Source: an uncultured Porphyromonadaceae bacterium (GTDB lineage: Bacteria; Bacteroidota; Bacteroidia; Bacteroidales; Muribaculaceae). Taken from it: a DNA stretch of 64,000 nucleotides. Made by a program: the position numbers and the translations under genes. Shown in pieces: positions 20,475 through 33,328 of the stretch (positions are counted from its first letter, which is position 1; each line of letters begins with the position of its first letter). Below the pieces are notes generated by a model. The model was not told the origin of the DNA. It made no database searches and saw only the letters and a list, made by a program, of their open reading frames with translations. The stretch spans positions 22,772 through 86,771 of the forward strand of contig CAMWNI010000008.1 of NCBI GenBank assembly GCA_947175545.1. Reading direction: 5' to 3'.

Positions 20475-20727
20475 TATAAAAAGTCGCACCAAAGGATTTG
20501 GATGAAACTCGTGGAAGACAGGATTTGAGTGCTTCCGAACCTTTGTAATCTGCCTTGGTGCGACCCTCCGTAAAGAGGGTATCGTACGCTCCGATGAACG
20601 GAGTGGAGCCCGCCATTAGTCCGTAAAGCTTGTCTCGGGAGTTCATAATGGTTTGAAGAGTTTCCCAATCTGCTTTGATGCGGCTTTATGTCTTTTGTCT
20701 TTATAATGACTCTCTTGTCAGTTTTGT
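20475..20727 (-). ncRNA. Candidate structured small RNA, about 250 nt
   Basis: An independent minus-strand transcription unit. A consensus promoter lies at plus 20734-20765. The end is a long hairpin (GTCGCACC at plus 20483-20490 with GGTGCGAC at 20557-20564) followed on the minus strand by a TTTTT run at plus 20482-20478. Two further perfect hairpins lie upstream in the transcript: GAGGGT/ACCCTC at plus 20563-20580 and CTCCG/CGGAG at 20589-20603. Inside the terminal hairpin a GGAAG/CTTCC helix adds to a rod shape. The 85-codon ORF across it (20389..20646) runs through the terminator, so I do not favour a coding role. I cannot assign a known family; a 6S, Bacteroidales-1 or SRP-type RNA would need covariance searches. 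Confidence 0.65.
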
Positions 20728-31289: not shown

Positions 31290-31607
31290 TCTATCTTTGC
31301 ACCTGTAATTGGAATATTCCAAAAAAATTGTGTAACGTTGCAAGGTCAAGAGAGACAATTTATTAGAAAAGAAAGGGCCTTGCTTCTTGTGAAATCGCCA
31401 AATTCTCACACCTACGCGCAACAGGCAAGTCAGACCATACACACTGTAATCATTACACCGGGTACAATGGGAAACCACTATACCCGGTGCAACAGTACCA
31501 TCCGTGCAGGAGCTGCACGGAAATTACGCCATTCGGAAATTCCTTAGCTCATTAGGGATTTTTCCAGCCGCATTGACAAGTCAACGCTGAAAATATCCCG
31601 AATGAGC
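31270..31607 (+). other. Hairpin-rich spacer after clpB, possible structured RNA
   Basis: No gene is supported in this 0.4-kb spacer. A possible promoter reads CTTG (31269-31272 region), a 19-base spacer and TATCTTTG (31292-31299), followed by a perfect palindrome TTGGAATATTCCAA (31309-31322). Then come successive inverted repeats: GCAAGG/CCTTGC (31340-31383), GTGAAAT/ATTCTCAC (31389-31409), CACCGGGTA/TACCCGGTG (31456-31489), CCGTGCA/TGCACGG (31502-31520). Last is a 61-base imperfect palindrome (31547-31607) whose outer arms are GCTCATT/AATGAGC. The pattern suggests a folded transcript, though the strand is not settled. Confidence 0.5.
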
Positions 31608-31621
31608 CAAAGGTCAACCTT
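31606..31621 (-). repeat. 16-base inverted repeat, right copy (clpB locus)
   Basis: GCCAAAGGTCAACCTT is the exact reverse complement of 28420-28435. It directly abuts the 61-base palindrome and lies 15 bases beyond the stop of the NERD-domain gene. Confidence 0.7.
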
Positions 31622-31635
31622 AGGTATCTGAATGT

Positions 31636-32403
31636 TCATTTGTAATAGTTGCGCACATTTTGAATATGGTGATTTACGATTTCGCAGTTATTTCCGTTTG
31701 CAGTAGCCTCTCTTAATACATTTATTACACCCCATTTGTCTTTATAGTTTGCAGATGGATTGTTCTCCAATATTTCCTCAATGATTGACATCACGTTTCT
31801 TGCATAACCTACATAAGTTGAATCTGGTATATAACTGATATCTCTTAATGTGCATCTTCCATAGAATACGACTACCGAGAAAAAGGGTACATCAGCAACA
31901 TCAGATAATTTCTTTTTCAGAGCTTCAATATGTCCATTGTTTTGTAAAATTGGATTGTAAAATCTATGTTTCTCTTTCCCATACGCCAATACTTGTGTCC
32001 AATAATTCTGATACCCTTTACCGAAAATCCATCCACTGTAATCCTTTACCTCAAATACAATCACTCCCACTTTAGTAACTACTACAGCATCAATTTGAGA
32101 ATATTGACCGTTATATCGTTCAACATACATGTCGTGATAAATGGTTATGGCAGGAATATTATGTTTAAGCAGTTTGAGTATTAATTTACGTTCCGAACAC
32201 GTACCCCTATTTGTGTCGGTTACTGTTCGCAATAATGCCATATTACGCCATTGGTTGATGGCAAAGAATATGGCTATTATTAAGGCTAATATGAGTACAA
32301 TACCAAATGGAACTCCTTTGAAAGAGAGATGCTCATTCACAGTTTGTGCAATAGATGCCATGTAACAAATCATTATGGCAATAATCGCAATACGTTTATT
32401 CAT
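31636..32403 (-). CDS. Membrane-anchored NERD-domain (nuclease-related) protein
   Basis: A 255-residue protein. Two N-terminal hydrophobic segments (about 4-20 and 31-50) are followed by a NERD domain with RGTCSERKLILKLL, YSQIDAVVVTKVGVIVFEVKDYSGWIFG and NPILQNNGHIEALK. The QID ... EVK residues correspond to the restriction-endonuclease-like active site of the family. Substrate and function are unknown; membrane anchoring suggests action on incoming or envelope-linked DNA, which is inference. It is AT-rich and lies 18 bases behind the amber-interrupted gene, probably in the same transcript. Confidence 0.85.
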   Translation of the reverse strand: MNKRIAIIAIMICYMASIAQTVNEHLSFKGVPFGIVLILALIIAIFFAINQWRNMALLRTVTDTNRGTCSERKLILKLLKHNIPAITIYHDMYVERYNGQYSQIDAVVVTKVGVIVFEVKDYSGWIFGKGYQNYWTQVLAYGKEKHRFYNPILQNNGHIEALKKKLSDVADVPFFSVVVFYGRCTLRDISYIPDSTYVGYARNVMSIIEEILENNPSANYKDKWGVINVLREATANGNNCEIVNHHIQNVRNYYK

Positions 32404-32421
32404 TTTACTGTAAAGATAGAT

Positions 32422-32832
32422 TTAGAACGATGATTGATTAATTGGTATGACTGCTTGTTTTTTCGGCTCGGTAGACCATTGAACCTGCCATGTTGTACTT
32501 TCTATTTTATCAATAAGAATAAAATTGAACATATTTTGTGTAGAATAGAGTTCAAATCTGCCATTTGTTGAATCTGTCGACAATGCAGTGGCGTTGAGTG
32601 GCATTTCAAATCGGGAGTCATCACCTTTGACGCTAAATTGTATTTGCCACATTTTGCCATTATGTGTATCCAGTTTGATAAAAGTCCACATATTATTAGT
32701 TGGATAAAGTTTGAAAGGGAAGACAATAATTTGTTCTTCCTATGGCTGCTTCTTTTCTGTAAGAGTAGCATTAGCACAGTTGGCAAGCCCAATTGAAAGC
32801 AGGATTAACAACGTCATTGTCGGGTACTTCAT
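32422..32832 (-). pseudogene. Secreted repeat protein interrupted by an in-frame amber codon
   Basis: Reading from ATG at 32832, the frame encodes a signal peptide (MTLLILLSIGLANCANA). It hits TAG at codon 31 (minus strand, plus 32740-32742) and then continues open in the same frame for 105 more codons to 32422. The ORF track shows only the last part, from 32691. The downstream part contains two similar units, NNMWTFIKLDTHNGKMWQIQFSV and QNMFNFILIDKIESTTWQVQWST (units quoted approximately by their cores). One base change (CAG to TAG) would explain the break. It could be a recent pseudogene, a sequencing error or a suppressed stop. The full product would be a 136-residue secreted protein of unknown function. 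Confidence 0.75.
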
Positions 32833-32867
32833 AATCATAAAACGCTCTCTAAGTTCCATAGGAGTTG

Positions 32868-32903
32868 TTAAAATAACACAAAGCGTGGAACTGTAATGCC
32901 ACG
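32868..32903 (-). terminator. Terminator or attenuator hairpin behind the rod RNA
   Basis: On the minus strand CGTGG-N10-CCACG (plus 32884-32903) is followed by ctttgtgttatttt, an interrupted T-rich tract. It lies 36 bases upstream of the ATG at 32832, so it could control entry into the downstream genes. Confidence 0.5.
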
Positions 32904-33089
32904 TCTTAGTGTGAAGGTGGTCGGAATACCTTTATAGACAGATGTGGGAATTAACAGCCCCACGCATATGCGTGGAGACCGTTAAGCCAACTCTTGTCTA
33001 TAGGTGAAATAGTTTCCGACGCTTTTCACACACAAGAAGACATAACGCCTCTTTATTCAAAATTTCGTAATGGGACTACTCCCAATTAA
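32870..33089 (-). ncRNA. Candidate rod-shaped structured RNA or regulatory leader
   Basis: A minus-strand unit of about 220 nt. Nested complementary segments (plus coordinates) fold into one rod. They are 32909-32915 GTGTGAA with 33025-33031; 32920-32926 GTCGGAA with 33014-33020; 32928-32941 ACCTTTATAGACAG with 32993-33004 CTTGTCTATAGG; 32951-32955 TTAAC with 32981-32985; and the apical perfect palindrome CCACGCATATGCGTGG at 32960-32975. A promoter lies just upstream and a terminator-like hairpin just downstream. It may be a free sRNA or an attenuating leader of the secreted protein and NERD genes that follow. No known class is recognised; no reverse transcriptase is nearby, so a retron is unlikely. 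Confidence 0.65.
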
Positions 33090-33092
33090 CTG

Positions 33093-33124
33093 CAAAGTTA
33101 CGACTTTTTGCGTTGCAAGTCAAT
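33093..33124 (-). promoter_or_regulatory. Promoter of rod-shaped RNA element
   Basis: On the minus strand TAACTTTG (plus 33093-33100) is preceded after 20 bases by ATTG (plus 33121-33124), a three-of-four match to the -33 TTTG. The start of transcription should be near 33089. Confidence 0.65.
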
Positions 33125-33328
33125 AGGCTGGGCAAAAATAAGTTTGGTTTGATTGACCACACATAGTTATACTATTGATAATCAACACAAGTATACCCTA
33201 AACAAAAATTGGGGTTAGCATTCTCAAATACACTAAAGAAGATTCTCTTAAAATTGAGAGTGATTTGCAGAAGTAAAAGGCCCCTAAATTTTTTAGGGGA
33301 GAATAGCGGGATATTCGCGGATTATGCT

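Follow-up and report, generated by a model that had tools for sequence, protein, structure and literature searches.

A stretch of 64,000 nucleotides (nt) from an uncultured Porphyromonadaceae bacterium of the Bacteroidales (contig CAMWNI010000008.1), here called the window, carries on its minus strand a rod-shaped RNA element that is probably the 5′ untranslated leader of a transcript encoding a small lipoprotein-like protein and a NERD-domain protein. The element would belong to a cis-acting leader RNA class that is new and found across the order, and would gate the main gene. We consider it very likely that a real conserved class of cis leader RNA exists. Comparison of its copies establishes, as predicted parts, a vegetative-type promoter box, a 5′ hairpin, a rod closed by helices P1a and P1b, a short upstream open reading frame (uORF, or mini-ORF) with its AUG enclosed in P1b, and a kissing pseudoknot. 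Gating specifically through the mini-ORF we place somewhat below an even chance.

The rod stems, running from P2 up to the apical hairpin, lie at 32909–33031 (−) and are capped by the perfect palindrome CCACGCATATGCGTGG (32960–32975), as an initial annotation of the window had described. The predicted fold of the minus-strand RNA from 32900 to 33040 bore this out at −58.4 kcal/mol, against −30.5 ± 3.8 kcal/mol for dinucleotide shuffles (z = −7.3; none of 200 as stable), and every stem shows covariation. The plus strand of the same region also folds strongly (z = −6.6). Any palindrome-rich stretch folds both ways, so folding of a single sequence leaves the strand undecided, and it was settled by comparison: several positions are most often U-G, which on the opposite strand would be an A-C mismatch, and this identifies the minus strand as the functional RNA. 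The conserved unit proved larger than the rod first noted. Its core (32880–33051, −; 192 bits by cmsearch) corresponds to positions 1–175 of the covariance model R1, which comprises the rod stems only and was built from 28 sequences, and the whole leader extends over about 32838–33100.

Within the core, helix P1a pairs GAGGCGU (33045–33051, −) with ACGCUUU (32880–32886, −). The mini-ORF, encoding MSSCV*, occupies 33026–33043 (−) with its AUG inside P1b. A bulge at the rod base, CAGUUCC (32887–32893, −), forms the first strand of the predicted pseudoknot; the second, GGAACU (32852–32857, −), is in the loop of P4, a hairpin at 32847–32864 (−) that lies just before the start codon and is weak in the window copy. 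Upstream, the sequence-variable hairpin H0 (33068–33089, −) marks the predicted 5′ end of the RNA. The promoter originally placed upstream of the rod on the minus strand is found there as the −7 box TAACTTTG (33093–33100, −). A TTG at 33121–33123 (−), 20 nt before this box, provides the −33 element, at a spacing typical of Bacteroidetes promoters.

A nucleotide search with a 251-nt query showed that many genomes of the same family carry the element, at differing sites and often in several copies. A covariance-model search across the Bacteroidales, the check proposed at the outset, returned R1 matches in 86 of 392 sampled genomes (86 of 385 passing quality limits; 53 of 205 genera), with 3–11 copies per genome in 14 carriers scored in full. 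The genome of the window holds a second copy, before a zinc-ribbon gene. Outside the order, a match was obtained in one genome only of a phylum-wide sample of 393 Bacteroidota genomes. Among named genomes, a pattern scan matched members of Bacteroides, Phocaeicola, Parabacteroides, Prevotella, Segatella, Xylanibacter, Alistipes, Barnesiella and Paludibacter, among others. The element is also present in ten IMG/VR contigs and one phage record; a scan of a plasmid collection gave no match.

Almost every copy has the same order of parts: a TAnnTTTG promoter, a 5′ hairpin, a uORF of 4–9 codons, a rod of 160–175 nt, the P4 hairpin and the start codon of an unrelated gene. The promoter motif was present in 84 of 96 leaders, where shuffles predict 6.7, and mostly stands 47–56 nt ahead of the core. 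Of 80 named or viral loci that have an open reading frame (ORF) downstream, 63 place the main ATG 40–59 nt past the core. The downstream gene runs in the same direction as the element nearly everywhere once contig orientation is allowed for; an apparent inversion of the element between genomes was an artefact of loci given in contig orientation. Upstream of the promoter, loci L083, L093, L098, L109 and L132 and loci L071, L072, L094 and L103 (L numbers are our locus labels) have sequence-variable dyads such as CCGTGATA...TATCACGG, which resemble an insulating terminator and whose closing T-runs abut or overlap the promoter. A segment between P4 and the ATG, GGTTGYGCYCGACACGG, is common to L080, where it is shorter, L113, L116, L118, L120 and L128.

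Substitutions among the homologous copies preserve pairing, the opposite of what the initial annotation had named as grounds for abandoning a structured RNA. In an alignment of 96 members fitted to the model's own stems, 96.1% of cells were paired, compared with 82.0% for shuffled partners and 35–46% for partners slid by 1–3 columns, and both-sided changes occurred at 45 of 54 pairs. A MAFFT alignment of 28 sequences agrees with the structure, which was itself derived from that alignment. Helix P1a (GARGCGU with ACGCUUC) lies outside model R1, and 97.4% of its cells were still paired; in the partner-swap test that follows, its z value was 3.8. Observed pairing was also compared with that of swapped partners in 167 distinct copies, a test whose z values are inflated by relatedness among the sequences and rank the pairings rather than give probabilities. 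H0 scored 13.97 against 11.02 (standard deviation, sd, 0.19; z = 15.7), and z values of 6.1 and 16.4 were obtained for P1b (UAUGC around the mini-ORF start with GGCAUA) and the P4 stem, respectively. The kissing pairing between the rod-base bulge and the P4 loop ~20 nt further on scored 14.50 against 11.48 (sd 0.25; z = 12.0), with control regions at chance level and z = 9.4 among 51 representatives below 80% identity. Examples of its co-variation are CAGUCC/GGACUG, GCUGGCU/AGCCGGC, GCACC/GGUGC and UAUGGACU/AGUCCGUA. On this comparative evidence the element is very probably a structured cis-acting 5′ leader, both in its conserved, covariation-supported structure and in its fixed orientation, start-codon spacing and upstream promoter.

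The reading frame of the mini-ORF is likewise restricted. Of 155 copies that have the ATG in GARGCGTTATG, 152 reach a stop within 10 codons in its frame, compared with 98 and 47 when the two other frames are read; for 43 divergent representatives the corresponding counts were 42, 20 and 18. Most mini-ORFs encode MLIL*, the remainder MLILYLKT* or peptides of the MSSSC type. Among copies that lack the early stop, 45 of 47 (8 of 9 representatives) have a UAG or UGA of the rod stem in frame, compared with 33 of 95 that possess it. A conserved and apparently translatable uORF, as expected of a leader-peptide attenuator, is thus a feature of the leaders that have the ATG, which a minority lack. The peptides MLIL*, MLILYLKT* and MSSSC* contained no codon run or arrest sequence tied to a regulated pathway, and show no link to the unrelated genes that follow.

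In the mechanism that we propose, a fully closed rod would allow the kissing loop to hold P4 and the start of the main gene would be masked. A ribosome starting on the mini-ORF would open P1b and P1a, breaking the tertiary contact and altering how accessible the main start codon is. Closure of the rod and translation of the mini-ORF would be mutually exclusive and would together gate that codon, such that translation of the main gene responds to a signal read through mini-ORF translation, rod closure or both, with either sign (on or off). Several points weigh against this proposal. The AUG is missing and P1b pairing kept in the divergent L140, L144, L143 and L146–L148, so that the mini-ORF is not universal; loss of the AUG in these few members while pairing stays makes pairing seem the more basic constraint. 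Some copies, L085, L093 and L094 among them, lack the kissing pairing or have it broken. The downstream genes have no common function, so the signal is not readable from the regulon, and control of those genes by the leader is something we infer from sequence comparison.

Other functions for the same structure were weighed against a mini-ORF-gated leader. A new ligand-binding riboswitch, in which the rod would bind a metabolite or second messenger, the kissing loop would act as expression platform and the mini-ORF would be incidental, is conceivable but rather unlikely. Strong structural conservation with an expression-platform-like pseudoknot adjoining the start codon would suit it, as would the presence in one genome of several genes that share no pathway, which is expected for a second messenger. 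However, unpaired positions that are strictly conserved are few (AA opposite CC and a few others), leaving no rich binding pocket evident, and the frame of the mini-ORF is conserved. Transcriptional attenuation finds less room still. The initial annotation had placed a terminator-like hairpin downstream of the rod, CGTGGCATTACAGTTCCACG (32883–32902), 36 nt from the start codon; the distance to the first ATG (32838) is in fact about 45 nt. As an intrinsic terminator, this CGUGG-CCACG hairpin would be an alternative to the closing helix of the rod, with which it overlaps and is mutually exclusive, and it can form in the window sequence. Yet its stem does not covary (7.26 versus 7.45 for shuffles; z = −1.4), a consensus scan called no terminator there, and the same bases are explained by the closing helix and kissing loop, where they do covary. 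We therefore regard an attenuator of this kind as very improbable, and a conserved intrinsic terminator with a U-tract was rejected on the lack of stem covariation and of a scan call.

The initial annotation had left open whether the rod was a free small RNA (sRNA) or a conditional leader. A free sRNA is disfavoured because an ORF follows the copies at fixed spacing; the leader option is upheld by the conserved promoter, orientation and start-codon spacing and by covariation reaching the start codon. A fragment of the 5′ untranslated region (UTR) may be released from the leader. Processing to a stable UTR-derived sRNA acting in trans, possibly with an RNA recognition motif (RRM) protein such as RbpB, would match the compact, stable, promoter-proximal structure with its 5′ hairpin, and UTR-derived sRNAs have been reported in B. 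thetaiotaomicron (PMC7366714). We nevertheless hold this improbable, as the covariation takes in the segment adjoining the main start codon and so points to action in cis. The remaining alternative is that the palindromes act as DNA, in a mobile repeat resembling a miniature inverted-repeat transposable element (MITE) or a single-strand recombination site. Cores 95–97% identical precede unrelated genes with unrelated flanks in different genera, homology often stopping at or near the core borders, and the ends GAAGCGT/ACGCTTC amount to a short terminal inverted repeat. Against this stand the constant orientation and gene spacing, G-U pairs throughout the stems, covariation with the flanking P4 loop, and the conserved promoter and mini-ORF frame. 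These make a DNA element highly unlikely, and the suspicion raised at the outset, that the palindromes are only recombination sites without a transcript, was not borne out. Relatives of the genes without a rod show partial internal deletions rather than clean empty sites. The integron attC boxes RYYYAAC and GTTRRRY were not seen at the ends GAAGCGT/ACGCTTC, as judged by eye only.

Near-identical cores before unrelated genes in different genera suggest that the core of the leader behaves as an exchangeable module. The nearest-neighbour core precedes the same gene family in only 5 of 44 labelled leaders. In pairs such as L342/L117 and L092/L334, cores of about 96% identity precede unrelated genes with little or no similarity outside the core. 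Genes 84–87% identical can have cores only 74–80% identical, and genes 77% identical a core 99% identical. The core loop of L093 (CAGUGCC) no longer fits its own P4 region, whereas the homologous L098 still pairs. Our reading of these comparisons is that cores appear to have been exchanged between loci; slow evolution of core sub-types may be the explanation instead. Loss also occurs: L424 and L426 keep the promoter, H0 and mini-ORF before an intact homologous gene, and have lost most of the rod, which is thus dispensable for keeping the gene. L423–L426 are all homologues of a CAPLR lipoprotein gene; their leaders are eroded or carry internal deletions and form a natural rod-deletion series. 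As a tentative extension, which we think possible but do not favour, the leader would be an order-wide, exchangeable signal-sensing module whose core is swapped by recombination or transfer, putting newly acquired, mostly secreted-protein genes under one translational signal.

The genes behind the leader are diverse. Among 73 downstream proteins, 54 Pfam families were recognised, and no family had more than two members. The genes code for BspA-type leucine-rich repeats, trypsin-like and caspase domains, GmrSD, GNAT, a lincosamide nucleotidyltransferase relative, and zinc ribbon and HxsD-like proteins, among others. In broader terms, the leader precedes adhesins, proteases, lipoproteins, a restriction gene and the lincosamide nucleotidyltransferase relative. 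Signal peptides are overrepresented: judged crudely, 51 of 80 and 55 of 77 downstream genes look secreted, compared with 93 of 419 (22%) other genes of the same named loci. A common pathway or defence-system regulon was rejected, since searches with Pfam, NCBIfam and PADLOC spread the genes over dozens of families, nearly every one of them represented once. L073, L076, L097 and L099 have no gene at the usual spacing after the core. Instead, a ~110-nt block common to them, containing TGATNATCA and GATACCGTAGAGTTCCC, comes after the core in the same register, and beyond it similarity stops.

In the window, the leader precedes the small lipoprotein-like ORF (32422–32838, −), which has an in-frame TAG at 32740–32742 and is probably a pseudogene in this genome; its uninterrupted relatives in L110 and L269 carry the same leader. 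The NERD-domain gene downstream (31636–32403, −; Pfam NERD E = 5e-26) likely shares the transcript. Its product starts with a signal-like segment and EHLSFKGVPF, resembling HLSFKGIPIEG, with which a secreted family found behind the same leader in L024, L093 and L098 begins. This likeness suggests a fusion. The whole unit (about 31409–33308) lies between clpB and a conserved gene, a site at which the closest relative has different genes and no leader.

The leader class is apparently uncatalogued. None of 4227 Rfam 15 families matched 32880–33051 at gathering score, in agreement with the initial annotation, which had called for this search and knew of no named class with the fold. A permissive Rfam scan of 9 divergent loci yielded only two chance-level TEG147 matches, both outside the core. 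We found no description of this RNA in the open-access literature, of which our coverage is incomplete and in which an unindexed account is possible. Of the Bacteroidales genomes sampled, roughly one in five is a carrier. If the leader is a regulator, gut commensals would control surface and accessory genes at dispersed sites through one signal, and the kissing loop, being conserved, offers a direct handle for testing the leader.

Several known RNAs invite comparison. The sole Rfam match in the window is Bacteroidales-1 (RF01693, suggested to be a 6S RNA), a structured RNA of the same order with a true copy at 20476–20685 (−; 105 bits); it is a separate family and does not match 32880–33051. 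The FopS/GibS sRNA family of Bacteroides is similarly a multicopy Bacteroidales RNA with sigma-ABfr-type promoters, and FopS consists of a single-stranded seed stretch and a terminator and acts in trans (PMC11697453). Compared with that description, the new leader is a rod in cis to its gene, with a different fold and no Rfam match, and identity with FopS was rejected. In general terms, long 5′ UTRs have been mentioned for the B. thetaiotaomicron transcriptome, as have short ORFs resembling leader peptides (PMC7366714). Riboswitches with pseudoknot expression platforms resemble the new leader in having a conserved aptamer-like domain with a pseudoknot behind it, close to the start codon, and in occurring in several copies per genome; unlike them, the leader has a mini-ORF inside the closing helix, no Rfam match and no evident ligand or common pathway. 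Leader-peptide translational attenuators, of which the Bacteroides tetQ leader is one, are alike in placing a short uORF within a structured 5′ leader adjoining the regulated start codon. Further examples are the erm leaders and the E. coli topAI uORF leader (PMC12121999). The new leader differs from these attenuators in combining a peptide of 4–9 residues with a conserved rod of 160–175 nt and a kissing pseudoknot, and in being shared, throughout an order, by dozens of gene families that are unrelated to one another.
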